A stretch of DNA of 64,000 bases from positions 859,256-923,255 of the forward strand of contig NZ_QYAB01000001.1 in NCBI RefSeq assembly GCF_016758175.1, in the 5' to 3' direction. Numbering within the stretch: the stretch's first letter is position 1; every line of letters begins with the position of its first letter. Source of the DNA: Leucobacter zeae (GTDB lineage: Bacteria > Actinomycetota > Actinomycetes > Actinomycetales > Microbacteriaceae). Positions 3,109-62,650 of this stretch are shown one piece after another. Position numbers and translations under genes: made by a program. Under the pieces are notes generated by a model. It saw nothing but the letters and a program-made list of their open reading frames with translations, was not told where the DNA came from and ran no database searches.

Positions 3109-4323
3109 GTGGAGCGAGAGAACGTTCAGAATCAGCATCCGGGATCGGAGCGGGCAGGCGCCCTTGCCGGGATCCGGGTCGCGGACTTCTCCCGCGTGCT
3201 CGCCGGGCCGCACGCGACGATGATCCTCGCCGACCTCGGCGCCGACGTGATCAAGATCGAGAGTCCCGAGGGCGACGGGACGCGCCAGTGGTCGCCGCCG
3301 ACCAACGCGATCGGGCAGAGCACGTACTTCGCCGGCGTCAATCGGGGGAAGCGGTCCGTGGTCTGCGACCTGCGGGACGCAGAGGGGCTCGCGCGCGCCC
3401 GTGAACTCGCCGCCTCCGCCGATGTCGTGATCGAGAACTTCAAGCCGGGCACGATGGAGAAGTTCGGCCTCGGCTACGCGGCCGTCGCCGCCGAGAACCC
3501 CGGCGTCGTGTACTGCTCGATCTCGGGCTTCGGCGACGACGCCGGCCGGGACCTGCCTGGCTACGACCTGCTCGTCCAGGCGGTCGGAGGGCTCATGAGC
3601 ATCACGGGCCAGAGCGACGAGGCCGGCGGAGAGCCCACCAAGGTCGGTGTCGCGCTCGTCGACATCCTCACCGGACTCAACTCCGTCATCGGGATTCAGG
3701 CGGCGCTGCGCGCGCGCGACTCCGCCGACTCGCCGACCGCTGGGCGGGGCCAGCACGTCAAGGTGACGCTGCTCGGATCGCTGCTCTCCGCGCTCGCGAA
3801 CCAGGCCTCGTCCACCCTCGAGACCGGCCGGTCGCCCGGGCGCATGGGCAACGCCCACCCCTCGATCGCGCCCTACGAGACCTACGAGGCCGCTGATCAG
3901 GCGATCGCCCTGGCCGTCGGCACCGACGGGCAGTTCGGCCGCTTGTGCGAGGTGCTCGGCGTCCCCGAGCTCGCGACCGACGAGCGCTACGCGACCAACC
4001 CGCAGCGCGTCGCGAACCGGGTGACGCTCAAGGCCGCGCTCGAGGGGCCGCTGCGCACTCGGAACGCCGAGGAGTGGATCGAGCGGTTCACCGCGGCCAA
4101 CATCCCGGCCGGACGGGTCAACACGATCGGTCAGGCCTTCGAGCTGGCCGAGACCCTCGGACTCGGCATGATCGCCGAGACCTCGGCGATCGCTCCGGAC
4201 GGCAGCGCGCAGACGCTGCGATCCGCGGCCACCCCGATCTCGTTCTCCGAGACCCCCGCCCGCTACGAGGTGCCGCCGCCCGGCATCGGCGAGCACCAGT
4301 CCGCCGAGTGGCTGCCCCGCTAG
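3109..4323 (+). CDS. CaiB/BaiF-family CoA-transferase (family III), probable glutarate CoA-transferase
   Basis: A 404-residue class III CoA-transferase that moves CoA between acyl-CoA and a free acid through an aspartyl thioester. Family landmarks are in order: FSRVLAGPHATMILADLGA with ADVIKIESPEGDGTR, VNRGKRSVVCDL, ENFKPGTMEKFGLGY, CSISGFG, and PGYDLLVQAVGG with the catalytic aspartate at about residue 153. The GTG start at 3109 follows a GAGGAG ribosome binding site by 6-8 nt. A glutaryl-CoA dehydrogenase begins 49 bp downstream on the same strand; in mitochondria and many bacteria this pairing corresponds to succinyl-CoA:glutarate CoA-transferase supplying glutaryl-CoA. Family is certain; the glutarate substrate is inferred from the neighbour. 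Confidence 0.88.
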   Translation: MERENVQNQHPGSERAGALAGIRVADFSRVLAGPHATMILADLGADVIKIESPEGDGTRQWSPPTNAIGQSTYFAGVNRGKRSVVCDLRDAEGLARARELAASADVVIENFKPGTMEKFGLGYAAVAAENPGVVYCSISGFGDDAGRDLPGYDLLVQAVGGLMSITGQSDEAGGEPTKVGVALVDILTGLNSVIGIQAALRARDSADSPTAGRGQHVKVTLLGSLLSALANQASSTLETGRSPGRMGNAHPSIAPYETYEAADQAIALAVGTDGQFGRLCEVLGVPELATDERYATNPQRVANRVTLKAALEGPLRTRNAEEWIERFTAANIPAGRVNTIGQAFELAETLGLGMIAETSAIAPDGSAQTLRSAATPISFSETPARYEVPPPGIGEHQSAEWLPR

Positions 4324-4372
4324 CGGAACCCGCACGACCTCTTCCCCACCTTCCACCACCCGAGGAGCACCC

Positions 4373-5536
4373 ATGACCACCACGATCGATCAGCTGTTCG
4401 ACGTCGCCGACTACGTCACCGAGGAGGAGCGCGAGTGGCAGCTGAAGGCCCGTGAGTTCGCGCAGACCCGCATCCGCCCCATCATCGACCAGGCGTTCGA
4501 GGATCGCCGCCTGCCGGCGGAGCTGCTGCCCGAGGTGGGCGAGTTCGGCGCGTTCGGCATGTACATGAACGGCTACGGACTGAAAGGCGCCTCCTCGGTC
4601 GCCTACGGCCTCGTGGCCATGGAGTTCGAGGCGGTCGACTCCGGTTTCCGCACGGCGCTGTCGGTGCAGGGCTCGCTCGCCATGGGTGCGATCTACAAGT
4701 TCGGCTCCGAGGAGCAGAAGCAGCGCTGGCTGCCCCCGATGGGCCGCGGCGAGGCCATCGGCTTCTTCGGGCTCACCGAGCCCCAGGGCGGTTCGGATCC
4801 CAACACCATGCTGACCCGTGCCCGCCGCGAGGGAGACGAGTGGGTGCTCACCGGCAAGAAGCGCTGGATCGGGCTCGCGACCATCGCGCAGGTCGGCGTG
4901 ATCTGGGCGAAGGACGAGGAGGGCATCGTGCGCGGCTTCGTCGTGCCGACTGACACCCCGGGCTTCACCGCGACCGCGATCGAGAACAAGCTCTCGATGC
5001 GCGCCTCGCTGCAGACCGAGATCGTGCTCGACGACGTGCGCCTGCCCGCCGATGCGATCCTGCCGGGGTCGAAGGGGCTGTCGTCGCCGTTCAAATGCCT
5101 CAACGAGGCGCGATACGGCATCGCCTGGGGTGTCATGGGTGCGGCGCGCTCGTGCCTCGAGGTCGCGGTCGAGCGCTCCCAGACGCGCGAGGTGTTCGGC
5201 ACTCCGATCGGCGGCAAGCAGATCATCCAGGCCAAGCTCGCCGACATGTTCCTCGAGTACCAGAAGGGTCTGCTGCTCGCGCTGCACCTCGGCCGACTCA
5301 AGGACGCCGGCACTCTGTCGTACGGCCAGATCTCGGTCGGCAAGCTCAACAACGTGCGCGAGGCCATCAAGATCGCGGGGACCGCGCGCGCGATCCTGGG
5401 CGGCGACGGTATCACCTCCGACTTCCCGGTGATGCGCCACATGGCGAACCTCGAGTCGGTGCGCACCTACGAGGGCACCGACGAGGTCCACCAGCTCGTC
5501 ATCGGCCGCGAGCTCACCGGCATCGCCGCCTTCTAG
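4373..5536 (+). CDS. gcdH: Glutaryl-CoA dehydrogenase
   Basis: A 387-residue FAD-dependent acyl-CoA dehydrogenase that oxidises and decarboxylates glutaryl-CoA to crotonyl-CoA in lysine, tryptophan and glutarate breakdown. The GCDH branch is recognised by FRTALSVQGSLAM (substrate-carboxylate arginine), FGLTEPQGGSDPNTM, LNEARYGIAWGVMGA and TYEGTDEVHQLVIGRELTG, where the glutamate at about residue 367 is the catalytic base. Length and the C-terminal GRELTGIAAF match the family. The ATG at 4373 follows a CGAGGAG site. It is co-directional with the CoA-transferase 49 bp upstream and probably co-transcribed. Electrons would pass to ETF. Other acyl-CoA dehydrogenases lack this combination of motifs. 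Confidence 0.93.
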   Translation: MTTTIDQLFDVADYVTEEEREWQLKAREFAQTRIRPIIDQAFEDRRLPAELLPEVGEFGAFGMYMNGYGLKGASSVAYGLVAMEFEAVDSGFRTALSVQGSLAMGAIYKFGSEEQKQRWLPPMGRGEAIGFFGLTEPQGGSDPNTMLTRARREGDEWVLTGKKRWIGLATIAQVGVIWAKDEEGIVRGFVVPTDTPGFTATAIENKLSMRASLQTEIVLDDVRLPADAILPGSKGLSSPFKCLNEARYGIAWGVMGAARSCLEVAVERSQTREVFGTPIGGKQIIQAKLADMFLEYQKGLLLALHLGRLKDAGTLSYGQISVGKLNNVREAIKIAGTARAILGGDGITSDFPVMRHMANLESVRTYEGTDEVHQLVIGRELTGIAAF

Positions 5537-5561: not shown

Positions 5562-5623
5562 GTTCGCCGAAGCGGCACCAAGCTGAATCTGGGTTCGCCG
5601 AAGCGGCGCCAAGCTGAATCGGG
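5562..5623. repeat. Two tandem 31-bp repeats after gcdH
   Basis: Copies at 5562-5592 and 5593-5623 differ at two positions; each begins GTTCGCCGAAGCGGC. The second copy runs into the long inverted repeat that follows. Neither encodes a protein. Confidence 0.8.
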
Positions 5624-5676
5624 GTCACTTCGGGGGTGTGTTCTCGCCGAACACGCCCCCGAAGTGACCCCGATTC
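5616..5676. terminator. Long inverted repeat, probable bidirectional terminator or REP-like hairpin
   Basis: Arms of 27 nt at 5616-5642 and 5650-5676 pair with one mismatch around the 7-nt loop CTCGCCG. It lies 80 bp after the gcdH stop and just before the GntR promoter, so it can end gcdH transcription. It lacks a clear U-tract, and its coupling to tandem repeats is unusual for a plain terminator. Confidence 0.7.
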
Positions 5677-5719: not shown

Positions 5720-6193
5720 ATGCTGATCAGGCTGGACGAGGCGAGCGATCGGCCGATCTACGCGCAGGTCGCAGACTCCGTGCGTGCGGGCATCGCCGAC
5801 GGAAGCGTCGCCGCCGGCGCGTCGCTGCCCTCGGCCAAGCAGGTCGCCGCCGCTCTCGGCGTGAACCAGCACACGGTGCTCCACGCCTACCAGCAGCTGC
5901 GCGACGAGGGGATCGTCGACCTGCGGCGGGGCCGAGGCGCGGTCGTCACCCGGGCGGCTGCCGGGATCGCCGAGCTCTACGCTCGGGCGGCCGCCCTTGC
6001 GGCTCGCGCCGCCGAGATCGGCGTCTCTCCGGCGGCGCTGGCCGCGATCGTGGTGCACGCCGGACAGCGCAGCGCGCACTCCGGACAGCGCAGCGCGGGC
6101 GCCTCCCGTCCAGATCCGGGATCGGACCCGCGCACCGCCGCCGCAGCACTCGCTGCCCCCGGATCCTCGAGCGGGCAGGAGGCCGCCGGATGA
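5720..6193 (+). CDS. GntR-family regulator, YtrA type
   Basis: A 157-residue one-domain repressor. Residues 1-75 form the GntR winged helix (RPIYAQVADSVRAGIADG, LPSAKQVAAALGVNQHTVLHAYQ, LRRGRGAVVT), and the tail is a short helical segment as in the YtrA subfamily rather than a large ligand domain. The last 40 residues are low-complexity (repeat GQRSA). The ATG is set by the leaderless -10 and the operator just upstream. Its stop overlaps the ATG of the DUF1648 gene by 4 bp, the first of three translationally coupled genes. YtrA-type regulators usually control adjacent membrane-protein or ABC operons under cell-wall stress; autoregulation is strongly suggested here. Confidence 0.88.
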   Translation: MLIRLDEASDRPIYAQVADSVRAGIADGSVAAGASLPSAKQVAAALGVNQHTVLHAYQQLRDEGIVDLRRGRGAVVTRAAAGIAELYARAAALAARAAEIGVSPAALAAIVVHAGQRSAHSGQRSAGASRPDPGSDPRTAAAALAAPGSSSGQEAAG

Positions 6194-7314: not shown

Positions 7315-8444
7315 CCGAGGAGACGACCGAAGGCGCAGCAGCGGCAGCGTCTGCGCGAGCGGCGCAGGCTGCCCCGACAGTGATGCCTGCCCCGACAGTG
7401 ATGCCTGCCCCGGCGGTGATGCCTGCCCCGGCGGCCGGACCGGCCCAGCCGGCGCGCCCCGACCGATTCGCCCGGGTGCCGTGGGGCGCGGTGGCGACCT
7501 ACGTCGCGACCGCTTTCGCGCTCGCGTGGGCGGTCGCGCTGCCGCTCTGGCTCATGGAACGCGGCTCCGCGACGTTCACGGCATGGTACGGGGTGATCGG
7601 AGCTGCGGTGATGTTCACCCCGGCGATCGCGACGCTCGTCGTCGTGCTGCTCATGCGGACCCCGCGCGCGGAGCGCATGCGCCTGCTCGGCATGTGGCCG
7701 CTGCGTCCGGCGAAGCGCGTGGTCTGGGCCGTCGTCGCGGCCTGGCTCGGCGCGCCCGCAGTCGTCGCGCTCTCCATCGCGGTGGCGGTCCTGTGCGGCT
7801 GGGTGCAGCTCGACCTCACGGGCTTCTCCGCGTTCCAGGCGACGATCGATGCCCAGCTGAGCGGCCTCGATCCCGAGACGCGCGAGCTCGCGGCGGCATC
7901 GATGCCGCCGGTCGGCGTCCTGGTCGCGCTCCAGCTCGTCGCGATCCCGTTCGGCGCGCTCTTCAACAGCATCTTCGCGTTCGGCGAGGAGGTGGGCTGG
8001 CGCGGGTGGCTGCTGCCCGCGCTCCGCCCCCTCGGCGTCTGGCCGGCGCTCGTGCTCAGCGGCGCGATCTGGGGCCTCTGGCACACCCCGCTGATCCTGC
8101 TCGGACACAACTTCGGCCTCTTCGACTGGCGCGGCGTCGCGCTCATGACGGGCGGCTGCATCGCCTGGGGCGTCCTGCTCGGGTGGGCGCGCCTGCGCAG
8201 CGGGTCCGTGTGGCCGGCCGTGGTCGGCCACGGGGCGCTCAACGCGTCGGCCGGGGTGGTCGGCGTGTTCGCGGCGGCAGACGGACCGTTCGACCCGGCG
8301 CTCGTGCTGCCGCTCGGCGTCGCCGGGTGGATCGCCGCGGCGCTGGTCGTCGCCGCGCTCGTGCTCGGGCGCCAGTTCGGCGAAGCGCACGAGCCCCGGC
8401 TCGCACCGAAACGCGCGCCGGTCGCGCCGCCGGTCAGCGCGTGA
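7311..8444 (+). CDS. CPBP-family intramembrane glutamic endopeptidase (CAAX/Abi)
   Basis: A 377-residue membrane protease of the CPBP group. Conserved motifs in order: FGEEVGWRGWLLPAL (catalytic glutamates, motif 1), the HTPLILLGHNF stretch (motif 2 histidine) and VVGHGALNASAG (motif 3 histidine), set in about eight hydrophobic helices. Residues 1-50 are a proline/alanine-rich cytoplasmic tail containing the repeated unit PTVMPA. The ATG overlaps the DUF1648 stop by 4 bp. Bacterial members process prenylated or anti-sigma-like proteins or act in bacteriocin self-immunity; the substrate here is unknown. The 3' end overlaps the convergent cupin gene by 11 bp. Confidence 0.85.
   Translation: MTEETTEGAAAAASARAAQAAPTVMPAPTVMPAPAVMPAPAAGPAQPARPDRFARVPWGAVATYVATAFALAWAVALPLWLMERGSATFTAWYGVIGAAVMFTPAIATLVVVLLMRTPRAERMRLLGMWPLRPAKRVVWAVVAAWLGAPAVVALSIAVAVLCGWVQLDLTGFSAFQATIDAQLSGLDPETRELAAASMPPVGVLVALQLVAIPFGALFNSIFAFGEEVGWRGWLLPALRPLGVWPALVLSGAIWGLWHTPLILLGHNFGLFDWRGVALMTGGCIAWGVLLGWARLRSGSVWPAVVGHGALNASAGVVGVFAAADGPFDPALVLPLGVAGWIAAALVVAALVLGRQFGEAHEPRLAPKRAPVAPPVSA
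7371..7424 (+). repeat. Three in-frame 18-bp repeats in the CPBP gene
   Basis: Units begin GCCCCGACAGTGATGCCT at 7371 and 7389, with a diverged third at 7407 and part of a fourth. They encode the 6-residue unit P-T/A-V-M-P-A in the N-terminal tail, so copy number can vary without shifting the frame. Confidence 0.8.
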
Positions 8445-14985: not shown

Positions 14986-15208
14986 CCGGAAGACGGCGCG
15001 CCCGAGTGCGCCCGGACCCCGCCGGCCCGCGCCGCCGAATGTTCCCGCCGTGTTCACCGGCCGGTTGCGTGTCGATGCGTCCGTCCGGTGCGACCGGGCG
15101 TAGCGTGTGGATCACCGGGCAGAGCGCCCGGGCGAGGTGAGAACGGTACGGTTTCACCCCCGCCACCTCGTCGATCCGGGGCGCGTGCCCCGGGGCAGAG
15201 GAGTCACC

Positions 15209-16573
15209 GTGGTCGAGATGCATCACCCCGCAACGCCCGCGCCGTCGATCGGCGAGACGCCCGCCCAGGAGCGCCTCGATGGGGCCGGGCAGCGATTGCG
15301 CAGCTTCGTGCTCGACACCTCGGTGCTGCTGAGCGATCCGACCGCGCTCTTCCGCTTCGCCGAGCACTCGGTCGTGCTGCCCGTCGTCGTCGTGATGGAG
15401 CTCGAGAAGAAGCGGCAGGATCCCGACCTCGGGTACTTCGCGCGCCGGGCGCTCAGGTTCCTCGACGAGCTGCGCGAGAAGCACCTGCGCCTCGATTTCC
15501 CCGTGCCCGTGGGCGACGCCGGCGGCACGCTGCGCGTGGAGCTCAACCACTCCAGCCCGGATGCGCTGCCGAGCGGAATGCGGCTCGGCGACAACGACAC
15601 GCGGATTCTCGCGGTCGCGCAGAACCTGGCCTCTGAGGGGCTCGACGTGACGGTCGTCTCGAAGGACCTGCCGATGCGGCTCAAGGCCGCGGCGCTCGGA
15701 CTCGGCTCGCAGGAGTACCGCGCCGAGCTCGCCCGCGACGACGCCTACACCGGGACCGCCCACCTCGAGCTCGGCGAGGAGGCGATGCAGGCGCTCTGGG
15801 AGGACGAGGCGCTCGAGGACTGCCCCGCCGTCGAAGGGATGCCGTACGGGACCGGGTTGATCATCACGTCGCCCCGCGGCTCGGCCCTCGGCCGAGTCGA
15901 CGGGAAGCGATCGCTGCGGCTCGTGCGCGGCGATCGGGAGGTCTTCGGTGTGAACGGCCGCAGCGCCGAGCAGCGGCTCGCGATCGACCTGCTGCTCGAT
16001 CCCCAGGTCGGGATCGTCTCGCTTGGCGGCAGCGCGGGCACCGGCAAGTCGGCGCTCGCGCTCGCCGCGGGGCTCGAGGCGGTGCTCGAACGCCGCCAGC
16101 ATCGCAAGGTCATGGTCTTCCGCCCGCTCTACGCGGTCGGCGGGCAGGATCTGGGGTATCTGCCCGGAGACTCGCAGGAGAAGATGAACCCGTGGGCGCA
16201 GGCGGTGTTCGACACGCTCGGCTCGATCGTCTCCGAGAACGTCCTCGATGAGGTCGTGGCCCGGAATCTGGTCGAGGTGCTTCCGCTCACGCACATCCGC
16301 GGTCGGTCGCTGCACGACGCGTTCGTGATCGTCGACGAGGCGCAGTCGCTCGAGCGCGGGGTGCTGCTCACGATGCTCTCGCGGATCGGGCAGAACTCGC
16401 GAGTCGTGCTCACCCACGACGTCGCGCAGCGCGACAACCTGCGCGTCGGCCGCTACGACGGGATCGCCGCGGTGATCGAGCGCCTCAAGGGCCACCCGCT
16501 GTTCGGACATGTGACGCTCGCCCGCTCGGAGCGCAGCGAGATCGCCGCGCTCGTCACCGAACTGCTCGACTGA
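15209..16573 (+). CDS. phoH: PIN-domain/PhoH-like ATPase (PhoH2)
   Basis: A 454-residue fusion of an N-terminal PIN nuclease domain and a C-terminal PhoH ATPase, an RNA-unwinding and cutting protein in the mycobacterial homologue. PIN acidic residues: [12 protein letters not shown] (Asp36), [30 protein letters not shown]. PhoH: Walker [14 protein letters not shown] at about 271-283, [40 protein letters not shown] (Walker B), TLSRIGQ-type [16 protein letters not shown]. Start: GTG at 15209, 6 nt after CAGAGGAG; the frame remains open further upstream without a better site. Mycobacterial phoH2 is preceded by a small antitoxin gene; none is evident here. Confidence 0.9.
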
Positions 16574-16638: not shown

Positions 16639-16771
16639 CGGTCGTCGTCGCGCTCGATCCTGGGGCGGCCGTGATGGGGGGCTGGTGGGCTGGCGTCTGG
16701 CGGTTGGGGTCTACTGGGCTGGGGCCTGCCGAGTTGCCGACCGGCACCGTCCTGCGACCCGCTCGTGTTCC

Positions 16772-16922
16772 GTTGACCTGCTCCTGTCCGTCGAGCTGCG
16801 CCCGGCCGTCGAGCTGCTCCTGTCCGTCGACCTGCTCCTGGCCGTCGACCTGCTCCTGGCCGTCGACCCAGTCGTGTCTCGTCGACCCACTCATGTCTCG
16901 TCGACCCACTCCTGGCATCGAC
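16772..16922. repeat. 18-bp tandem repeat array (minisatellite)
   Basis: About eight units. Five 18-bp units begin GTCGACCTGCTCCTGGCC or close variants (16772, 16790, 16808, 16826, 16844). They pass into three 19-20 bp units beginning GTCGACCCA (16862, 16881, 16900). The last unit abuts the 60-bp inverted repeat, sharing its CCACT. Confidence 0.85.
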
Positions 16923-16982
16923 CCACTACCGGCCCGCCGAGCTGGCATCGGGCCTGATGCCGACTCGACGGATCTGTAGTGG
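16923..16982. repeat. 60-bp inverted repeat, copy 1
   Basis: Arms of 27 nt (16923-16949 and 16956-16982) flank the 6-nt centre GGGCCT. The outer ends read CCACTAC / GTAGTGG and the inner ends GGCATC / GATGCC; arms differ at six or seven positions. Copies 2 and 3 have exactly the same arm and centre lengths. Confidence 0.85.
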
Positions 16983-17125
16983 CCGGGTGCGTACTCGATG
17001 GGCCGGTAGTGGCCGGGTGCGCGATCTGCGGGACCGTAGCCGTCGGACGTCGAGGCGTCGAGTCGGTAGTGCTCGGCTCGGGGGGCCGCTGGGCGGAGCA
17101 CGCGACGCAACGGGGCGGGTGACGG

Positions 17126-18136
17126 TCATCGTCGCGATCGATCCGGAACGAGGGGTGGAACCGGTACCCCGAAGGAGCGCAGCATCCGGGCGAACGCCTC
17201 CAACGTGCGGACGTCCTCGTACCCCCAGTGGATCAAACGCTTCCCCGTGATTCCCGAGATCCGATTGTCTCGCTTCTTCTCCCGAAGCACGGTCTCCGCC
17301 GCCGTGCGGCTGCCCATGAGACGCTGATCCGTGTACTTGGCGTCGCCGTCGGACTCCCCGAGGATCCCGAGCCCGCGCAGCTCGAAGTCCACGTACCAGC
17401 ACCCTCCATCCGGGTTCGGCACTCGAACCTGCAGGTCGACGTCGATCCCGAGCCTCCGGAACTGCAACCGGCTCACGCTCTCCAACACGGAATCGGCGCG
17501 CGCGTCGGCGAACTCGATCGCACGACGCAGCGCTCGAACGCCCCGTCTCCCTCGGGCACCCGCGATGCGATCTCGCATCCGGTGCCGCCAGGAATCGCTT
17601 CGAACCTCGTCGAACGAGTGCGAGCCGCGGCCATCCTGCTCGACCGCCGAGCGCAGCACCGCATCTGCGACGCCTACGAGCGTCTCTTCGCAGGCCAGGC
17701 TCGCCAGGTCGATGAGCGTGCGGTCGGCCGAAGTGCAGCGGATCCCCGCGACGGACACGACGTCATCCACCGCGACCCGCTGCTGATGCCGGCTCATGCT
17801 CGGCCGGCTCGCACCGCTGGTCTCGGCGGACAGATGCACCCGCGAGTCCGGGAACTCCCAGACCGGGAGGCCGAGCAGTACCGCGGCGGAGGTGTGCGTG
17901 AAGAGCGGAGGCCTTGTCGCATCCCGGTGCGCGATGAGGACCCGAGCGAGTTGCCGGTCGCTCGGGTGCCACGCGTTCCAATCCGCCGCAGGCGCATACC
18001 AGCCCCGGGCGATTCTGACGAGTCGCTTCTCCCGGACCCGCCGTGCGATGCGGCGTTCGGTCCAGCCGGAGGCGAGCAGCTCGCCGGTGCGACGCAGGGC
18101 GTTGTCTACACGCTGGATGTGATCCGGAACTCTCAT
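17126..18136 (-). CDS. AbiEi-antitoxin-like N-terminal domain protein with endonuclease-fold C-terminus
   Basis: A 336-residue protein of a type common in Microbacteriaceae. The N-terminal 90 residues fit the AbiEi antitoxin winged helix (LLASGWTERRIARRV, RLVRIARGWYAP), followed by a middle region with FTHTSAAVLLGLPVWEF and TSADRTLIDLAS as in AbiEi proteins. The C-terminal 120 residues look like a DUF559/Vsr-like nuclease fold: VESVSRLQF-type helix, WYVDFELRGLGILGESDGDAKY and REKKRDNRISGITGKRLI, where Asp and Glu/Lys could form the metal site. No AbiEii toxin partner lies beside it. It sits alone between repeat islands A and B, bracketed by two 60-bp inverted repeats. ATG start at 18136; no clear ribosome binding site. 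Nuclease activity is inference. Confidence 0.75.
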   Translation of the reverse strand: MRVPDHIQRVDNALRRTGELLASGWTERRIARRVREKRLVRIARGWYAPAADWNAWHPSDRQLARVLIAHRDATRPPLFTHTSAAVLLGLPVWEFPDSRVHLSAETSGASRPSMSRHQQRVAVDDVVSVAGIRCTSADRTLIDLASLACEETLVGVADAVLRSAVEQDGRGSHSFDEVRSDSWRHRMRDRIAGARGRRGVRALRRAIEFADARADSVLESVSRLQFRRLGIDVDLQVRVPNPDGGCWYVDFELRGLGILGESDGDAKYTDQRLMGSRTAAETVLREKKRDNRISGITGKRLIHWGYEDVRTLEAFARMLRSFGVPVPPLVPDRSRR

Positions 18137-18312
18137 GGGTCCATGGTGAGCGGCTCTCGACTTCCGGATCAGCGAGTGGCGTCATGTTGTGGACAAGTGG
18201 GGCGTTGAGTTCGGTGTTCATTGAGGTGAGCGGAGTTTCGGCGGGCGACAGGGCCGTCGGCCTCGCAAGAAACGCACCGAGCCACTATCGGCCTGTCAGG
18301 AAGGTCGCCGAT

Positions 18313-18372
18313 CCACTACTGAACCGTCGAGTTGGCATCGGAGCAGATGTCATCTCGGCGGCTCGGTAGTGG
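18313..18372. repeat. 60-bp inverted repeat, copy 2
   Basis: Arms 18313-18339 and 18346-18372 flank the centre GGAGCA. Same outer CCACTAC/GTAGTGG ends, same inner GGCATC/GATGTC ends, same 27-6-27 geometry as copies 1 and 3. A decayed single arm precedes it at 18282. Confidence 0.85.
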
Positions 18373-18776: not shown

Positions 18777-19472
18777 TCAGCCCGCGGCGCCCCCGCGCGA
18801 GGTCTCGGCCTCGGCCGCGTCCCAGCGCGCGGTCGCGACGAGGTTCTCCTGGGCGCTCGCCGCGGCGGCGACGGGATCCCGGCGGCGGATCGCCTCGAGC
18901 ACCTCCTCGTGCCCGCGAGGCTCGTCGCGGCAGAAGCCCTCCCGCGTGATCGCGGACGCCATGGCCTCGTGGATCCGCGGCAGCAGCGCGGAGTACACCT
19001 CGAACAGGATGTGGTTGTGGGTCGCGCGGGCGATCGCCTCGTGCACGGCCACGTCGGTCGCCGCCCAGACCTCGTCGTCGGCGGCCGCGCGCAGGTCGAG
19101 GGCCGCCTGGATCCGCTCGATGTCGTCGGCGTCGGCCCGCTCCGCGGCGAGCCGCGCGAGCTGCGGTTCGAGCGCCGCGCGCGCCTCGAACACCTCGGCG
19201 AGACTCGCTCCCGAACGCGCGAGCGCGCCGGGCACTTCGCTGCGAGCGGTCACGAACGTGCCGTCGCCCCGCCTGATATCGAGCATCCCGGTGTACTGCA
19301 GGGCGCGCAACGCTTCGCGCAGCGTGCCGCGGGCGACCCCGAGCTCGGCCATCAGCTCGGTCTCGGGCGGGATCCGCTGCCCGACGGGCCAGCGGCCCTC
19401 GACGATCTCGGCGCGCAGGCGCTCGACGACGCGGTCGCTCAGGGAGGTCTGGTGCAGCGGCGCGAGGGGCAT
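18777..19472 (-). CDS. FadR/FCD-type GntR transcriptional regulator
   Basis: A 231-residue regulator. Residues 1-75 form the GntR winged helix (LSDRVVERLRAEIVEGRWP, IPPETELMAELGVARGTLREALRAL, IRRGDGTFVT); residues 85-225 form the all-helical FCD ligand domain with EARAALEPQLARLAAERA, DVAVHEAIARATHNHILFEVY and EEVLEAIRRRDPVAA. The start at 19472 is chosen because TATCAT (19480-19485) sits 7 nt upstream as a leaderless -10; two in-frame starts further up, at 19481 and 19532, would run over this promoter and the neighbouring gene. It diverges from an MFS exporter over a 16-bp palindrome and probably represses both. Confidence 0.87.
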   Translation of the reverse strand: MPLAPLHQTSLSDRVVERLRAEIVEGRWPVGQRIPPETELMAELGVARGTLREALRALQYTGMLDIRRGDGTFVTARSEVPGALARSGASLAEVFEARAALEPQLARLAAERADADDIERIQAALDLRAAADDEVWAATDVAVHEAIARATHNHILFEVYSALLPRIHEAMASAITREGFCRDEPRGHEEVLEAIRRRDPVAAAASAQENLVATARWDAAEAETSRGGAAG

Positions 19473-19479
19473 GTGTGCC

Positions 19480-19514
19480 ATGATAGTCGGGAAGTAATGG
19501 TTAGACGTTTGACC
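19480..19514. promoter_or_regulatory. Divergent control region: -10 TATCAT and 16-bp operator palindrome
   Basis: TATCAT on the minus strand (19480-19485) serves the regulator gene. GGTTAGACGTTTGACC (19499-19514) is an imperfect dyad of the GGT-N-ACC kind that FadR-type proteins bind. It lies over the expected -35 of the regulator and immediately before the exporter start. Confidence 0.6.
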
Positions 19515-19519
19515 TTTGG

Positions 19520-20884
19520 ATGTATATGACACGCACCCTCCGACCCTCGACCGCGTTGCGCGGCCCCGTGCTCATGCTGACCGCGTTGATCCTCGTGGCG
19601 GTCAACCTGCGACTGGGCGTCACGAGCGCGAGCGCCCTGCTGACGGCGCTGACCCGGGCCGGAGCGCTCACTCCGCTCACGGTGGTCATCGTCCCCGCGC
19701 TCCCGACGGCGGTGTTCGCGCTCGCGGGCGTCGGCACGGCGCGCGCGGCCGCCCGCCTGGGGACCGAGCGGACCGTGCTGATCGGCATGATCGCGCTCAC
19801 TGCGGGGCTCATGATCCGCGCCGTCGCCGATCCCTGGGTGGTCGTCACGGGCACGGTGATCGCGACGGGCGGCCTGGCCGTCGTGAACATCCTGCTGCCC
19901 GCGGTGGTGCGGGAGCACTTCGGCCGCAGCATCGGCCCCGTGACGACGGCGTACACGACCACCATGTCGCTCGGCGCCGCGATCGCGGCTGCGGTCGCCG
20001 TTCCGGTCGCGGGAGCCCTCGGATCGCCGACGCTCGGCCTCGCGGCCTGGGGGCTGCCGGCCCTCGTCGGGCTGGTCGCGTGGGCCGTCGTGATGCCTCG
20101 CCGTTCCGCGCGGTCCTCGGCCGGAGTCGCCGCCCGCGACGCCCGCACCGCCCGCGACGCTCGCGAAGCGGCTGCGGCTCCGGTCGGCCGCGCCCGGATC
20201 CCCGCGGGGACGGGCCTGCTGTCCGCCTACTTCGCCCTGCAGGCGCTGCTGAGCTACGTCGCGATGGGCTGGCTTCCCACGATCGCGCACGATGCCGGGA
20301 TCCCGACTGCGCGATCGGGCATGCTGCTCGGCATCACCATGGCCGTGGGCGTGCCGGTGACCGCGATCATCGTGTCGCTCGCACGCGGCACGCGGCGCAT
20401 GCGGGCCGGATTCCTCATCGTCGCCTGCTCCAGCGCGGTCGCACTCGGCGGTCTGCTCCTCGCCCCGGCGGCGCTGCCCGAGCTCTGGGCCGCGCTGCTC
20501 GGGGTCGGCATGTGCGCCTTCCCGCTGGTGCTCGCGCTGATCGCCGGCTTCGGAGACGATGCGGCCGAGTCCGCGCTCGTCTCGACGATCGTGCAGTCGA
20601 CGGGATATTCGATCGCCACGGTCGGACCCCTCGGCGCGGGCGCGCTGCGGCAGCTCAGCGGGTCGTGGTCGGCGGTGCTCGTGCTCCTCATCGTCTGCGC
20701 TCTCGTGCAGGGCGCGATCGGGCTCGCGCTCACCCGGGTCGTCGCGGCCAAGCGGCGTCGGGCGATTCCCGCCGGCTACCCGGAGGCGGAATCCCCGGCG
20801 GTGGAATCTGCGGAGACGGTATCTCAGGCGGCGGAGTCCCCGGAGGCGGACGCCCCGGAGGGATCGCGCAGCTCGGCCGCGTAG
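19520..20884 (+). CDS. MFS transporter, CynX/NimT (cyanate/nitroimidazole) type
   Basis: A 454-residue 12-helix major facilitator. The CynX-like features are LILVAVNLRLGVTSASALL in helix 1, AARLGTERTVLIGM after helix 2, and VVNILLPAVVREHFGRSIG in helix 4-5, with a central loop rich in Arg/Ala and a C-terminal tail of ESPEAD-like repeats. CynX relatives move cyanate or 2-nitroimidazole; substrate is not predictable here. The ATG at 20 nt into the intergenic region (19520) or the next at 19526 are both possible. It is divergent from the FCD regulator and shares its operator. The 3' end overlaps the convergent TPR gene by 61 bp. Confidence 0.82.
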   Translation: MYMTRTLRPSTALRGPVLMLTALILVAVNLRLGVTSASALLTALTRAGALTPLTVVIVPALPTAVFALAGVGTARAAARLGTERTVLIGMIALTAGLMIRAVADPWVVVTGTVIATGGLAVVNILLPAVVREHFGRSIGPVTTAYTTTMSLGAAIAAAVAVPVAGALGSPTLGLAAWGLPALVGLVAWAVVMPRRSARSSAGVAARDARTARDAREAAAAPVGRARIPAGTGLLSAYFALQALLSYVAMGWLPTIAHDAGIPTARSGMLLGITMAVGVPVTAIIVSLARGTRRMRAGFLIVACSSAVALGGLLLAPAALPELWAALLGVGMCAFPLVLALIAGFGDDAAESALVSTIVQSTGYSIATVGPLGAGALRQLSGSWSAVLVLLIVCALVQGAIGLALTRVVAAKRRRAIPAGYPEAESPAVESAETVSQAAESPEADAPEGSRSSAA

Positions 20885-21342
20885 CCGAGCAGCGAACGCT
20901 GATACCGGGGGAGTCCGGGGACGAGGGCCTCCAGCGCCACCGCGAGTGCCTCGTCCCGGCGCCCCGCCGAGTGCAGTGCGAGTGCGAGGAACGCCTCGGG
21001 TGCTGCGCCGAGCGCGGGATCGCGTCGGGATCCGCGCAGCATCGCGACCGCCTCCTCATGCCTGCCGAGATTCCTGAGCGTCGACGCGTACTGGATGTCG
21101 AGCTCGGCCCGCGCCTGGCCGGAGAGCCCGAGCGCGACTGCGCGCGCGTACTGCTCGGCCGCCTCGGCCTCGAAACCGGCGGAGTCATAGGCGCCTCCGA
21201 GCTCGAAGGGCCCGCGCGGATCGTCCGCGGGGAGTTCGGCCGCGAGCGCGGCCACCCGCTCGACGACCTCCGCCCCGTCCAGGGCGTCGTCGGCCCAGAC
21301 CGCATCGATCCGGGACTGCCAATCCGAGGGAGACGTGCGCAT
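20824..21342 (-). CDS. Tetratricopeptide-repeat protein
   Basis: A 172-residue soluble helical protein of the TPR_5 group: ERVAALAAELPADDPRGPFELGGAYDSAG, then EAEAAEQYARAVALG, then DIQYASTLRNLGRHEEAVAMLR, and DEALAVALEALVPGLPRYQR. It is probably a protein-interaction scaffold; no partner is known. The ATG at 21342 is preferred over the GTG two codons upstream because TAGGCT (21349-21354, minus strand) then falls 6 nt before the start. The stop lies 61 bp inside the convergent MFS gene, a real 3' overlap. Confidence 0.82.
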   Translation of the reverse strand: MRTSPSDWQSRIDAVWADDALDGAEVVERVAALAAELPADDPRGPFELGGAYDSAGFEAEAAEQYARAVALGLSGQARAELDIQYASTLRNLGRHEEAVAMLRGSRRDPALGAAPEAFLALALHSAGRRDEALAVALEALVPGLPRYQRSLLGYAAELRDPSGASASGDSAA

Positions 21343-21348
21343 GGGCAC

Positions 21349-26819: not shown

Positions 26820-28229
26820 CTACTTCGCGACGCCGGGGTGCGTCATCGAGAGCAGGTCGAGCGCCTGATCCAGGTCGGCCTCGCTCACCTCGCCGCGCTC
26901 CACATAGCCGAGGTCGACGACGGCCTCGCGCACGGTGATGCCCTTCTTGACCGAGTGCTTCGCGATCTTCGCGGCGGCCTCGTAGCCGATGAGGCGGTTG
27001 AGCGGGGTGACCGTCGACGGGCTCATGCCGGCGAGGGCAGCGGCGCGCTCGAGGTTGGCCTCGAGGCCCGCGACGGTCTTGTCGGCGAGCACGGTCGAGG
27101 CGTTCGCGAGCAGGCGGATCGACTCGAGCAGCGCGGTGCCCATGACGGGGATCTGCACGTTCAGCTCGAAGGAGCCTGAGGCGCCCGCCCACGCGATGGT
27201 CGCGTCGTTGCCGATGACCCGGGCGCACACCATGAGCACGGCCTCGGGCACGACCGGGTTGACCTTGCCCGGCATGATCGAGGAGCCCGGCTGCAGGTCG
27301 GGGATGTGGAGCTCGGCGAGACCCGTGTTGGGGCCGGAGCCCATCCAGCGGATGTCGTTGTTGATCTTGGTCAGCGAGACCGCGATCGTGCGCAGTGCGC
27401 CCGACGCCTCGACGAGGCCGTCGCGGTTCGCCTGGGCCTCGAAGTGGTTGCGTGCCTCGGTGATGGGCAGGCCGCTCGACTGGGCGATCTCGGCGATGAC
27501 CTTCTCGGGGAAGCCGAGCGGGGTGTTGATGCCGGTGCCGACTGCGGTGCCGCCCTGGGGGACCTCGGCGACGCGCGGGAGGGCCGCGTCGATGCGCTCG
27601 ATGCCGTAGCGGATCTGGGCGGCGAAGCCGCCGAACTCCTGGCCGAGGGTCACGGGCGTCGCGTCCATGAGGTGGGTGCGGCCCGACTTGACGGCGGTCT
27701 TCCACAGCTCGGCCTTGGCCTCGAACGCCTCGGCGAGGTGCGCGAGCGCGGGCTTCAGCTGCTCGATGAGCGCGCCGGTCACCGCGATATGCACCGAGGT
27801 GGGGAACACGTCGTTGGACGACTGCGAGGCGTTGACGTGGTCGTTCGGGTGCACGGGGGCGCCGAGGTGCTTTGTCGCGAGGGTCGAGAGGACCTCGTTC
27901 ATGTTCATGTTCGACGAGGTGCCCGAGCCGGTCTGGTAGGTATCGACCGGGAACATGTCGTGGTGATCGCCCGCGATGATCTCGTCGGCGGCGGCCACGA
28001 TCGCGTCGGCGATCGCGGCGTCCAGGATCCCGAGATCCTTGTTCGCGATCGCCGCGGCGCGCTTGATGCGCGCGAGCGCGACGATCTGAGCCGGTTCGAG
28101 GCCCTTGCCCGAGATCGGGAAGTTCTCGACGGCGCGCTGCGTCTGGGCGGCGTAGAGGGCGTTCTTCGGAACGCGGACCTCGCCCATGGTGTCGTGCTCG
28201 ATGCGGTACTCGGTGTCAGTCACTGTCAT
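26820..28229 (-). CDS. fumC: Fumarate hydratase class II
   Basis: A 469-residue oxygen-stable fumarase, interconverting fumarate and malate in the TCA cycle. Signatures: [31 protein letters not shown], the [17 protein letters not shown] catalytic region, GTGINTP and the superfamily motif [13 protein letters not shown] near residue 317. Length is typical for a homotetrameric class II enzyme. ATG start with a short AAGG site. It is followed on the same strand, going upstream, by a carbonic anhydrase, DUF4245 and xseB genes, a neighbourhood seen in relatives. Confidence 0.97.
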
Positions 28230-30214: not shown

Positions 30215-31360
30215 ATGCTGCGACTCGTCTTCTTCTTGAGCGTCGGAATCGTCCTGGGCAGCATCGTGGCGCAGGTCGTCGGGCCGCCCGGCGCCGGCGT
30301 GTGGGGGATGCCGGTCGGCATCACGCTCGCGGCGCTGTCCGGCACGTTCATCATGATCGCGAAGTCGATGCGCGGCGTGCAGCTGCCGTCGTCGCGGCAG
30401 GTCGCCGCGGCCCGCGACGCCGGCCGGCTCGCGGTCTGCAGGATCGACGTGCTGCGGCAGACCGGCACGCGGATCAACGACCAGCCGCTCTGCGAGCTCG
30501 AGCTCACGGTGCAGCCTCGGGCCGGCGAGGCCTTCCGCACCATGACCCGGATCGTGGTTCCGGTCACCGCCGTGCCCGGAGTCCAGCCGGGTGCGCGCCG
30601 CGTCGTCGCACGGCTCACCGCGGACGGTCCCGAGGTCGCGCTGCTCGACGACGACGCATCGGCTTGGAGCGACGTCGAGATCCCGCCCGTCGCCGCGGCC
30701 GGTCAGCTGAAGACCCCCGAGCCGGGCGTGATCCGGGCCGACGGCACCCGCCGCGGGCCGATCGTTGGCGTGGGCGCCCGGGGACGCGTGCTGCGCTACA
30801 TCGTCTTCGCGGTCGTGCTCGTCGCTGGCGCCGGGGTCGTCGTGATGCCCTACCGCGCCGGGCTGATGCAGACTGTCGCGGCGCTGCAGGACGGCCGGCT
30901 GCACGCGGACCTGCGCCAGCCGGGGCCGCTCGCGGAGGCGGTCTCGGCGCTCGAGCGCGAGATCGGCCACGGCACGGTGTCGAACGTCGTGGTCTTCGAC
31001 GACATGATCACGGTCGAGGCCCCGCTCGTCCCGGGCGAGCGGGCGAGCGATGACTGGATCTACCGCGGCGGCGTCGTCGAGCACCGGGGTCCGTCGACGA
31101 TCCAGCCAGACGACGTCGGCGAGCAGTTCGAGCTCTCGGACGTCGACTGGTCGGCGCTCATGCCCGCGGTGCGCGAGGCGAGCGGACTCACGGATGTCGC
31201 GAGCAACGACGAGACGGCGTTCTCGATCAGCCGGGGGTTCGATGGGCCGGAGGGGCCGACAGGAGTCGAGGTGCGCTTCTCGTTCGACGACCCGTACCAC
31301 TCGGCGTGGTTCCGGATGCACGCCGACGGCAGCGGCCTGGAACTCACGAGCGAGGACTGA
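30215..31360 (+). CDS. Two-segment membrane protein of unknown function
   Basis: A 381-residue protein not recognised as a named family. Residues 1-45 form two closely spaced hydrophobic helices (LVFFLSVGIVLGSIVAQVVG and a second at 29-47); residues 50-180 a soluble beta domain that includes RLAVCRIDVLRQTGTRINDQPLCELEL, a form seen in actinobacterial proteins with short SHOCT-like or PH-like modules; a third helix at about 195-215 (YIVFAVVLVAGAGVVVMPY) precedes a 165-residue external domain. The start is set by a leaderless -10. It lies on the plus strand between xseB and xseA, which are otherwise neighbours in bacteria. Confidence 0.72.
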   Translation: MLRLVFFLSVGIVLGSIVAQVVGPPGAGVWGMPVGITLAALSGTFIMIAKSMRGVQLPSSRQVAAARDAGRLAVCRIDVLRQTGTRINDQPLCELELTVQPRAGEAFRTMTRIVVPVTAVPGVQPGARRVVARLTADGPEVALLDDDASAWSDVEIPPVAAAGQLKTPEPGVIRADGTRRGPIVGVGARGRVLRYIVFAVVLVAGAGVVVMPYRAGLMQTVAALQDGRLHADLRQPGPLAEAVSALEREIGHGTVSNVVVFDDMITVEAPLVPGERASDDWIYRGGVVEHRGPSTIQPDDVGEQFELSDVDWSALMPAVREASGLTDVASNDETAFSISRGFDGPEGPTGVEVRFSFDDPYHSAWFRMHADGSGLELTSED

Positions 31361-31697: not shown

Positions 31698-31757
31698 CCA
31701 CTACGTATCCGTCGAGATGGCATCGGCGCCGATGCCATCTCGACGGGCCGGTAGTGG
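31698..31757. repeat. 60-bp inverted repeat, copy 3, with a perfect 38-bp core palindrome
   Basis: Arms 31698-31724 and 31731-31757 flank the centre GGCGCC. The inner 38 bp (31709-31746) are a perfect palindrome centred on GGC|GCC; only the bases next to the outer CCACTAC differ. Same 27-6-27 geometry as copies 1 and 2. Confidence 0.9.
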
Positions 31758-31881
31758 CTCGTCGGGTCGAGAGGTCGGGTCGGTAGTGGGTCGTCGGCAA
31801 AGGACGGGCCGGTAGTGGGTCGGCGGGGTCGGGTGGCGGGCCGGTAGTGGGTCGTCGGGTCCAAGGGACGGGCCAGTGGGG
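31758..31881. repeat. Array of single right arms of the 60-bp repeat
   Basis: GGTAGTGG-type ends recur at 31783, 31812 and 31844 after the full copy's own at 31751, 29-32 bp apart, and end in a decayed GGCCAGTGGG. Each follows a GTCGGG or GACGGGCC run, matching one arm only. Confidence 0.65.
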
Positions 31882-31983: not shown

Positions 31984-33225
31984 CTACGCGGCGGGGCCGC
32001 CCGAGGTCGCCGAGATGCGCCCGCCGGCGAGGGCGATGCTGATCCCCGCCCCGGCGGGGGCGTCGGAGGGATCGCGCAGCACCGCGCCAGCCGATCCGCC
32101 GCCGTCGACCAGTTGCGCGATCGCGTACCCGCGCTCGAGCGTCGCCTGGGGCGAGAGCGCCGACAGGCGGGCACGCACCTCCGCGAGGGACCGGGCCCGA
32201 TCCTCGACCGCCCGGTCCGCCAGCTCCGCGCCGCGCGCCGCCCAGCGCACGAGCTCGTCGGCGCGCTCGTCGACGATACGCATCGGCTGTGCGAGCACAG
32301 GGCGTCCGCGCAGCTGCGCGATGCGGTCGGATTCGTGCGCGAGCAGGTGGCCGAGCCTGCCGCTCAGGCGGGCGCGGGCCTGATCCAGCCCCGCGAGCTC
32401 CTCGCCGACGTCGGGCACGACCCGCTTCGCGGCGTCGGTCGGGGTCGAGGCGCGCAGATCCGCCACCTCGTCGAGCAGCGGGCGATCCGCCTCGTGCCCG
32501 ATCGCGCTCACGAGCGGCGTCGTCGCCGCGGCCGCGGCGCGCACCACGCGCTCGTCGCTGAAGGGCAGCAGGTTCTGGAAGTCGCCGCCGCCGCGGGCGA
32601 CGATGATCACGTCGACATCGGGGTTCCGATCCAGAGCCTCGATCCCCGCGACGACCTCGGCCGCCGCCCGGTCGCCCTGCACGGCGGCGTAGTGGATCTC
32701 GAAGCGCACGCCCGGCCAGCGCAGCGTCGCGTTGCGCACGACGTCCTTCTCGGCGTCGGAGTCACGGCCGGTCACGAGTCCGATGCGGTGCGGCAGGAAC
32801 GGCAGCCGGCGCTTGCGCTCGACCGCGAAGAGCCCCTCGGACTGCAGCTGGCGGCGCAGTCGTTCGAGCCGCTCGAGCAGTTCTCCGATGCCCACGTGCG
32901 AGAGCTCGAAGACCTGCACGGTCAGCGATCCGCCCTTGACCCAGAAGTTCGGCTTGACGAGGGCCACGACGCGGTCGCCCTGCGCGAACTCGCTCGTCAG
33001 CCTGCCCGCGACCGAGCGCCAGACGGTGAAGCTGACGGTGGCGTCCTGCGCCAGATCGCGGAGCTTGCCGTAGACGTGGCCGCCGCGCACCTGCCACTGC
33101 GTGATCTCGCCCTCGATCCAGACCTGTCCGAGCCGGTCGATCCACGCGGCGATCTTCTCGCTCATCAGGGCGACGGGCCACGGGGCCTCGCGGGTCGCCG
33201 GGGATCCGGATCCTGCCTCTGCCAT
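31984..33225 (-). CDS. xseA: Exodeoxyribonuclease VII large subunit
   Basis: A 413-residue catalytic subunit of exonuclease VII. N-terminal OB-fold about residues 20-115 ([22 protein letters not shown]), then the XseA catalytic domain with [56 protein letters not shown] and [27 protein letters not shown], followed by a long helical region and [13 protein letters not shown] at 33225 is chosen: the family begins within 25 residues of the OB-fold, although the frame stays open upstream. The usual neighbour xseB is 1.9 kb downstream. Confidence 0.96.
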
Positions 33226-33384
33226 GCGCACCACCCTACCCGCGGGGTCGCCGTGTGCGGGTCGCCTTCCGCGGGTCCGGGGCAGGGCGCCCCGCGGATC
33301 CGTAGCGGGCTCGCTGCCCAGCCTCGACGGTCCGCCGCCTCGTCGCGCGGCCGTACCTCCGCCTCGCCCATTCCCTGTCACACC

Positions 33385-62510: not shown

Positions 62511-62540
62511 ATCCTGCGACTCGCTTCGCTCCCGCAGGAT
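62511..62540. repeat. ATCCTGCG hairpin repeat, second full copy
   Basis: Arms ATCCTGCG and CGCAGGAT around ACTCGCTTCGCTCC, differing from the copy at 28291 at one position. It lies in the gap between DUF1345 and the POT transporter. Confidence 0.75.
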
Positions 62541-62618
62541 GACGGGACGGGTGAGGGGCTACTCCCGCAGGATGACGGGACGGGTGAGGGGGTGCTCACG
62601 CAGGATGACCGGACGAGA
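62529..62618. repeat. 33-bp tandem repeats after the ATCCTGCG hairpin
   Basis: Units begin CTCCCGCAGGATGACGGGAC at 62529 and 62562, with a diverged third at 62595. Each repeats the right arm of the hairpin plus a G-rich spacer, so the array looks grown from one arm. Confidence 0.8.
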
Positions 62619-62650
62619 ACGAGGCCGCTCCCGCGGAGGTCCGGGAACGG

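Follow-up and report, generated by a model that had tools for sequence, protein, structure and literature searches.

A predicted winged-helix nuclease gene of Leucobacter between two palindrome copies, and relatives with palindromes of their own, suggest an undescribed partnership

Introduction

Why does a single gene lie between two copies of a 60-bp palindrome that is also found elsewhere in the same genome? The established example of an enzyme living with dispersed palindromes is RAYT with its REP palindromes, and the locus described here raises the question of whether gene and palindrome belong together in a comparable way. A preliminary description of this DNA had considered the gene and its two repeats as a mobile or exchangeable cassette. 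The evidence on the protein, on the palindrome and on their relatives in other genomes is presented below.

The locus

The window is the whole stretch of DNA analysed, 64,000 nucleotides, corresponding to contig C1 859256-923255 of the studied Leucobacter genome (G000, 3.47 Mb); coordinates without a prefix are window positions. Together with 53 congeners, this genome forms a set of 54. The gene between palindrome copies 1 and 2 is the only one there, has 336 codons and is read from the reverse strand (Table 1). The bracketing of a lone gene, as first described, is therefore exact to the base, and the repeat-rich flanks were likewise recovered, as mirror-oriented half-sites beside the palindromes and an 18-bp tandem array. 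The neighbouring genes encode PhoH (15188-16573) and an FCD/GntR regulator (18777-19532). Gene calls for the controls and for the convergent and divergent counts came from our own codon-usage gene finder and were checked by eye.

Other repeats occur in the window. Short tandem arrays with units of 18 bp and 33 bp are located at 7351-7440 and 62529-62627, and a 61-bp near-perfect palindrome of unrelated sequence (5616-5676) lies between the genes at 4373-5536 and 5720-6193.

Table 1. Positions of the features of the locus and of palindrome copy 3 in the window
Feature	Position	Strand	Evidence
Gene for the 336-aa protein P0001 (predicted AbiEi-type winged helix and nuclease)	17126..18136	-	One match in G000
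AbiEi-like part, residues 9-211	17504..18112	-	6y8q structural match; PADLOC AbiEi E 1.3e-11
Predicted nuclease-fold part, residues 212-326	17159..17503	-	Invariant residues; I-Bth0305I and Vsr structural matches
Palindrome copy 1, 3' side of the P0001 gene	16923..16982	.	60 bp
Palindrome copy 2, 5' side of the P0001 gene	18313..18372	.	60 bp
Palindrome copy 3, between convergent genes 30215-31360 and 31984-33234	31698..31757	.	
Half-site units (CGACCCACT...) leading into copy 1	16868..16922	+	Sequence
Degenerate mirror half-sites (GGTAGTGG, GGTAGTGC) following copy 1	16983..17090	-	Sequence
Extra half-site (CGAGCCACTATC) before copy 2	18279..18312	+	Sequence
Array of mirror half-sites (GGTAGTGG) after copy 3	31758..31860	-	Repeat family D2
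18-bp tandem repeat array beside the repeat-gene-repeat unit	16770..16877	.	Repeat family D3

The predicted protein

P0001 is encoded by one gene copy, its sole match in G000 being itself. The codon-usage score of the gene is 11, and most window genes of similar length score above 100. An AlphaFold2 model built from a 21-sequence alignment has a mean pLDDT of 93.0 and a pTM of 0.89. In this model, residues 9-211 resemble the AbiEi antitoxin 6y8q (Z 7.9, rmsd 7.3, 171 aligned) and residues 216-325 the catalytic domain of I-Bth0305I (Z 8.0, rmsd 3.1, 94 aligned), Z-scores of 7-8 being middling by the structure-comparison tool's own note. Further structural matches of the nuclease part are Vsr (Z 6.9) and TnsA (Z 5.7), and the C-terminal part, for which a structure prediction had been proposed, thus adopts a predicted Vsr/EDxHD-like nuclease fold. 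Seven residues (E219, D250, E261, D263, K267, E286 and R289) are invariant across the 21 homologues; to judge from the fold, E219, D250, E261, D263 and K267 form the putative active site.

P0001 is accordingly predicted to join a winged-helix part of the AbiEi type to a Vsr/EDxHD-like nuclease domain. The first description had already combined a defence-antitoxin domain with a putative endonuclease fold, and structure and the PADLOC AbiEi models bear this out, whereas in Pfam the AbiEi_4 domain stays under the cut-off (23.8 vs 25 bits). P0001 gave no match to PF04480 (DUF559) or PF18741 at E <= 1 and none in NCBIfam, and a sequence search of solved structures returned no relative.

The 60-bp palindrome in its own genome

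The palindrome has the arm consensus CCACTAC NNNN CCG[TC]CGA NNN GGCATC, followed by a 6-bp spacer and the mirror arm. Genome-wide, 85 arm matches with at most 3 mismatches were found in G000 (backwards controls 1 and 3), among them the arms of at least 40 palindromes, a lower bound that may leave out more degenerate copies. Every one of the 40 lies between genes, at 23 convergent, 14 tandem and 3 divergent junctions, and 37 adjoin one gene end or two. Measured against the intergenic bases of the window (33% convergent, 30% divergent), a small sample, the excess at convergent junctions has a p of 0.001 and the deficit at divergent ones a p of 0.0008.

Paired changes preserve the symmetry of the arms, with 65 cells changed on both sides; 0 of 500 shuffles reached this number, and sliding the partner by 1-3 columns gave 8-17 cells. 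Extra half-sites within 120 bp of the 40 copies are oriented, CCACT occurring 15 times on the left and once on the right, AGTGG once on the left and 15 times on the right. In 59 of the 80 arms an outer CGA precedes the inner CGA by 19 bp. Copies 1 and 2, which flank the P0001 gene, are among the less symmetric palindromes of the genome (21 and 22 of 27 arm positions). Three variants (L144 2962, L156 3027, L167 2965) carry the outer motif in place of the inner half-site.

Outside G000 this repeat was not recovered. Arm matches in the 53 congeners stay at background (at most 9 per genome, controls up to 5), and among the matches listed none has fewer than two mismatches. The exact 60-bp pattern has no copy in genome_contigs, a collection of 84,980 species that may lack records close to G000 itself. 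Nor did 109 homologue loci yield any arm match at up to 3 mismatches. Searches for the exact repeat alone would thus speak against any link between gene and repeat; the pattern emerged only when palindromes of any sequence were considered.

Palindromes of any sequence beside homologues

Palindromes of at least 54 bp were sought within 250 bp of homologues, first with +1/-2 and then with laxer +1/-1 scoring; all counts and controls come from the second scan. The 89 Leucobacter loci leave out about twelve matches that were weak, partial or at contig ends and retain one weak fragment (G007). An adjoining palindrome was found at 50 of them, on one side in 36 and on both in 14; the other 39 have none at this length and distance. 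Out of 67 palindromes in 524 kb of Leucobacter loci, 65 adjoin a homologue. A palindrome adjoins 1 of 58 control genes other than the homologue in these loci and 20 of 296 control genes taken from PhoH loci, giving Fisher p values of about 2e-13 and 2e-22, respectively; the larger control includes genes beside a homologue, one palindrome being counted for two neighbours, and all these counts take related sequences as independent.

The association extends to other genera, including Microbacterium, Leifsonia, Rothia, Flexivirga, Propionicicella, Williamsia and Tessaracoccus. Within the best 80 of 169 named loci, 23 of 54 homologues from other genera have a palindrome and 31 have none at the threshold, compared with 17 of 341 control genes having one, and 28 of 46 palindromes are located in the 4% of sequence adjoining the gene. 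The named Leucobacter loci within the same 80 gave 17 of 26 homologues against 3 of 144 control genes; they overlap the species of the genome set and are not independent of it, whereas the 54 loci of other genera are. Clear two-sided cases are G041, G052, G031, G034, G023, Microbacterium helvum and Propionicicella superfundia. Neither scan detects the degenerate copies that flank the G000 gene, so that its locus (L140) is blank, and the second misses one of two M. helvum copies that the first showed; the counts are therefore low rather than high.

The expectation that homologues would be flanked by the repeat thus failed for the exact 60-bp sequence and held for palindromes of the same design. 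That relatives often have their own, different palindromes suggests an undescribed partnership of a predicted nuclease with scattered repeats.

An operator function offers another explanation of the adjacency: an AbiEi-type repressor would act on the inverted repeat of its own promoter, the scattered copies would be its regulon and the nuclease domain would be incidental. In Streptococcus agalactiae, AbiEi acts through two inverted repeats to repress the promoter of its own operon-independent synthesis, according to the available text of PMC3985639, and one palindrome does lie 5' of the G000 gene. Palindromes are, however, found downstream of the nuclease gene as often as upstream (35 and 30). 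As the G000 copies also favour convergent junctions (23 of 40) and avoid divergent promoter regions (3), this explanation is quite unlikely.

A shared design with a 19-bp period

The palindromes differ in sequence from one protein family to another and follow one design, in which two half-sites 19 bp apart are mirrored. The mean self-match of Leucobacter arms is 0.64 for a lag of 19 and 0.22-0.31 for the other lags, and 19 bp is the best internal lag in 44 of 65 Leucobacter palindromes. In other genera, within the best 80 of 169 named loci, the best lag is 19 in 18 of 28 palindromes and 20 in 4. This repetition indicates that the typical palindrome comprises two direct half-sites and two mirrored ones. 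One site in G023 carries an extra 19 bp relative to its orthologue in G006.

Other palindromes were noticed during inspection of these loci. In G052, two near-identical palindromes (L111 6608-6667 and 7195-7276) bracket a gene related to the window gene at 20824-21348; they do not show the 19-bp lag and may represent a second class of palindrome. In G021, two copies of one palindrome (L103 3085-3140 and 3614-3669) lie beside a DUF559 gene (3793-4779), and DUF559 proteins may thus have palindromes too.

Correspondence between palindromes and protein families

Palindromes were compared pairwise among 51 loci. In each of the ten closest pairs, one of the two proteins ranks first or second among 50 as a match to its counterpart, the rank being taken in one direction. 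For the pairs placed 11th-25th by palindrome similarity, the protein partner ranks first or second in 6 of 15 and 12th to 34th in 7 of 15. Compared all against all, protein and palindrome similarity are weakly correlated (Spearman 0.09; 38 of 2000 permutations reach this value), perhaps because most palindromes have diverged beyond comparison, which is offered as an explanation and not as a result. Four genomes (G006, G050, G012 and G052) each contain two protein families and two different palindromes. For the most similar palindromes, these sequence comparisons support the view that palindrome type follows protein family. The idea that gene and repeat belong together and that the nuclease may act on the palindrome, for which the exact repeat gave a negative result, is thus strongly supported in a generalized form by adjacency and by this pairing.

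Dispersal of cognate palindromes

Cognate palindromes are dispersed in six genomes: G000, G006, G023, G050, G052 and Microbacterium helvum. The arm common to G006, G023 and G050 was found in only those 3 of the 54 genomes, with 18, 20 and 7 matches, respectively, and 0 in the control. The G052-type pattern has 13 matches in G052, 2 in G012 and 1 in G017; the G012 protein is the sister of the G052 protein, and with only 2 matches dispersal is unsupported in G012. The M. helvum arm has 29 matches in its own genome.

Leaving out gene-flanking copies and second arms, 36 dispersed loci from five genomes, among the matches listed, comprise 17 convergent, 13 tandem and 4 divergent positions and 2 inside a predicted gene. 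Again among the matches listed, convergent positions make up 17 of the 25 Leucobacter loci and none of the 11 M. helvum loci, to which both inside-gene loci belong. With M. helvum included, the bias towards convergent junctions does not hold generally.

Placement at gene ends would also suit structural host elements, e.g., terminators or chromosome organizers at gene ends that spread by other means and among which the nuclease gene merely lands. All 40 G000 palindromes are intergenic, 37 of them alongside a gene end, and two family palindromes in G006 (L312 1451-1530 and 2535-2614) bracket what is, by inspection, an unrelated membrane-protease-like gene and not a nuclease gene. The most similar palindromes nevertheless track the protein family rather than the genome, and the one arm searched for in 54 genomes occurs only in the three that have that protein family. 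We regard host elements as unlikely.

Distribution of homologues and the question of mobility

Family matches are present in 45 of the 54 Leucobacter genomes, G000 included, with a patchy distribution of 0 to 7 per genome. This patchiness, together with the AbiEi models of the defence database that match P0001, would fit a solitary defence nuclease attacking foreign DNA, with the palindromes as decoys, self-marks or regulatory sites. A defence gene would not be expected to have two-sided and dispersed palindromes, the neighbours include no AbiEii partner, and 50,697 phage and 72,556 plasmid records contain no homologue at E <= 1e-5; a defence role of this kind is very improbable.

The PhoH locus could be read in 40 of 52 PhoH-matching congeners. 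The FCD gene directly follows PhoH in 8 of these 40, with a gap of 27-435 bp, and a gene of the P0001 type is thus missing there. A family member near PhoH occurs in four congeners: G001 (51% identity, behind two genes), G027 (48%, next to PhoH), G021 (29%, of the DUF559 type) and G053 (32%, upstream). The G001 orthologue abuts a gene homologous to the window gene at 26820-28229 (94% identity), and a homologue of that gene stands immediately next to PhoH in G034, so that the stretch between PhoH and this homologue is an interval of variable genes. The proteins of G000, G001, G027, G034, G009 and G024 form a supported clade (99/94). The G001 and G027 orthologues show that the interval is occupied without the 60-bp repeat; the former has no palindrome of at least 54 bp beside the gene and the latter has a palindrome of its own.

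These arrangements bear on the exchangeable or mobile cassette of the preliminary description, in which repeat, gene and repeat would move as a unit. The 14 of 89 loci with two-sided bracketing agree with it, as do the G000 locus and the adjacency of PhoH and FCD in 8 of 40 loci. Of the clean presence and absence predicted for relatives, the absence of the gene was found, and no junction cut at the repeat ends. Nor was clean excision seen, and one gene copy in G000 stands against 40 palindromes. Orthologues occupy the same interval in G001 and G027 without this repeat, and in G006, G023 and G050, three species that share one palindrome type, the nuclease gene lies at one orthologous place. Movement as a unit is improbable.

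Any movement of the palindromes themselves appears slow. G006 and G023 have about 89% DNA identity around PhoH, and both palindrome sites traced by whole-genome search are common to them. At one of these the palindrome is missing in G050, where the intergenic sequence is too diverged for a junction; the second was found from G023 and is also in G006. Three more common sites come from palindrome-bearing loci only, a biased count. Common positions point to slow rather than rapid movement, and the site comparisons of G006, G023 and G050 revealed no clean insertion, excision or target duplication at palindromes. Elsewhere, G033 and G016 have orthologous nuclease genes whose upstream regions differ by an indel of 176 bp, which contains half-site units (L049 2573-2748 vs L050) and shows no clear target duplication.

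A proposed mechanism

We consider it probable that P0001-type genes form a single REP-like system together with the scattered palindromes. In it, the N-terminal part of the AbiEi type would bind a half-site specific to its family, (C)GA(G) and some six further bases. With two half-sites per arm, 19 bp apart and mirrored, a dimer or tetramer would assemble on 60-80 bp. The C-terminal Vsr/EDxHD-type nuclease would then nick or cut at or beside the palindrome, and repair would spread or maintain palindrome copies between genes. The nuclease gene is itself edged by palindromes, as RAYT transposase genes are by REPs.

The steps differ in strength. AbiEi antitoxin binds inverted repeats extending to 23-bp arms (available text of PMC3985639) and the EDxHD enzyme I-Bth0305I dimerizes on a target of nearly 60 bp (accessible portion of PMC3943268); target sizes of this order fit a protein on a 60-80-bp palindrome, so that, by analogy with these characterized relatives, binding of P0001 to its palindromes is likely. 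Cutting is plausible, and mobilization of the palindromes by P0001 would be the boldest step. A wider proposal is possible, if not quite probable, namely that Actinomycetota harbour a class of REP-like selfish system in which a winged-helix/Vsr-type nuclease recognizes, cuts and multiplies long four-half-site palindromes, with fast mutual re-specification leaving most families a code of their own.

Comparison with known systems

The N-terminal two thirds of P0001 resemble AbiEi (6y8q) of the AbiE type IV toxin-antitoxin systems, and AbiEi is described in the available part of PMC3985639 as binding long inverted repeats. P0001 differs in its extra, predicted C-terminal nuclease domain, in having PhoH and FCD/GntR genes as neighbours and no adjacent gene for an AbiEii nucleotidyltransferase toxin, and in that the palindromes of its family also occur downstream and genome-wide. 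Its modelled catalytic fold is that of I-Bth0305I and Vsr (Z 8.0 and 6.9), and I-Bth0305I likewise has a target near 60 bp that is bound by a dimer (PMC3943268, in its accessible portion). In contrast to EDxHD homing endonucleases, the candidate target of P0001 is a dispersed palindrome family and its gene stands alone. DUF559/REase_MTES_1575 proteins probably belong to the same nuclease superfamily, and a DUF559 protein occupies the same place in the congener G021; P0001 differs from them in matching neither of the two Pfam families. The open-licence papers searched nowhere connect AbiEi, DUF559 or Vsr-like nucleases with dispersed palindromes, and as far as this search reaches the system is undescribed.

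The closest likeness is to RAYT-REP, in which, in the available text of PMC2817692 and PMC3733652, a fast-evolving enzyme gene has co-evolving palindromes at its edges and cognate palindromes are dispersed between genes, at gene ends. The P0001 family shares the edge palindromes, the dispersed cognate copies, the gene-end location and the pairing of enzyme and palindrome. Flanking is less strict than the 'always' of RAYT, with 14 of 89 loci flanked on both sides, 36 on one and 39 on none. The predicted enzyme is an AbiEi winged helix with a Vsr/EDxHD-type nuclease, whereas RAYT is a Y1 transposase, and the palindromes are at least 54 bp long with four half-sites 19 bp apart, compared with 20-40 bp and an unpaired GTAG/CGTC tag in REP; by inspection, GTAG in the G000 palindromes lies inside the paired arm. 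The Y1 transposase domain (PF01797) was found neither in P0001 nor in G000, the same search being positive in 5 of 14 control genomes, and a RAYT as the enzyme behind the G000 palindromes was rejected on this ground. Without the transposase domain and the short tagged palindrome, the proposed system would work like RAYT-REP and not be a member of it.

If this is true, a second, unrelated class of enzymes lives with dispersed palindromes and such a lifestyle arose more than once; it would also give an origin to unexplained intergenic palindromes in actinobacteria. A series of proteins with different half-sites at a constant 19-bp spacing would, in addition, offer a recognition code that is readable from sequence and directly testable.
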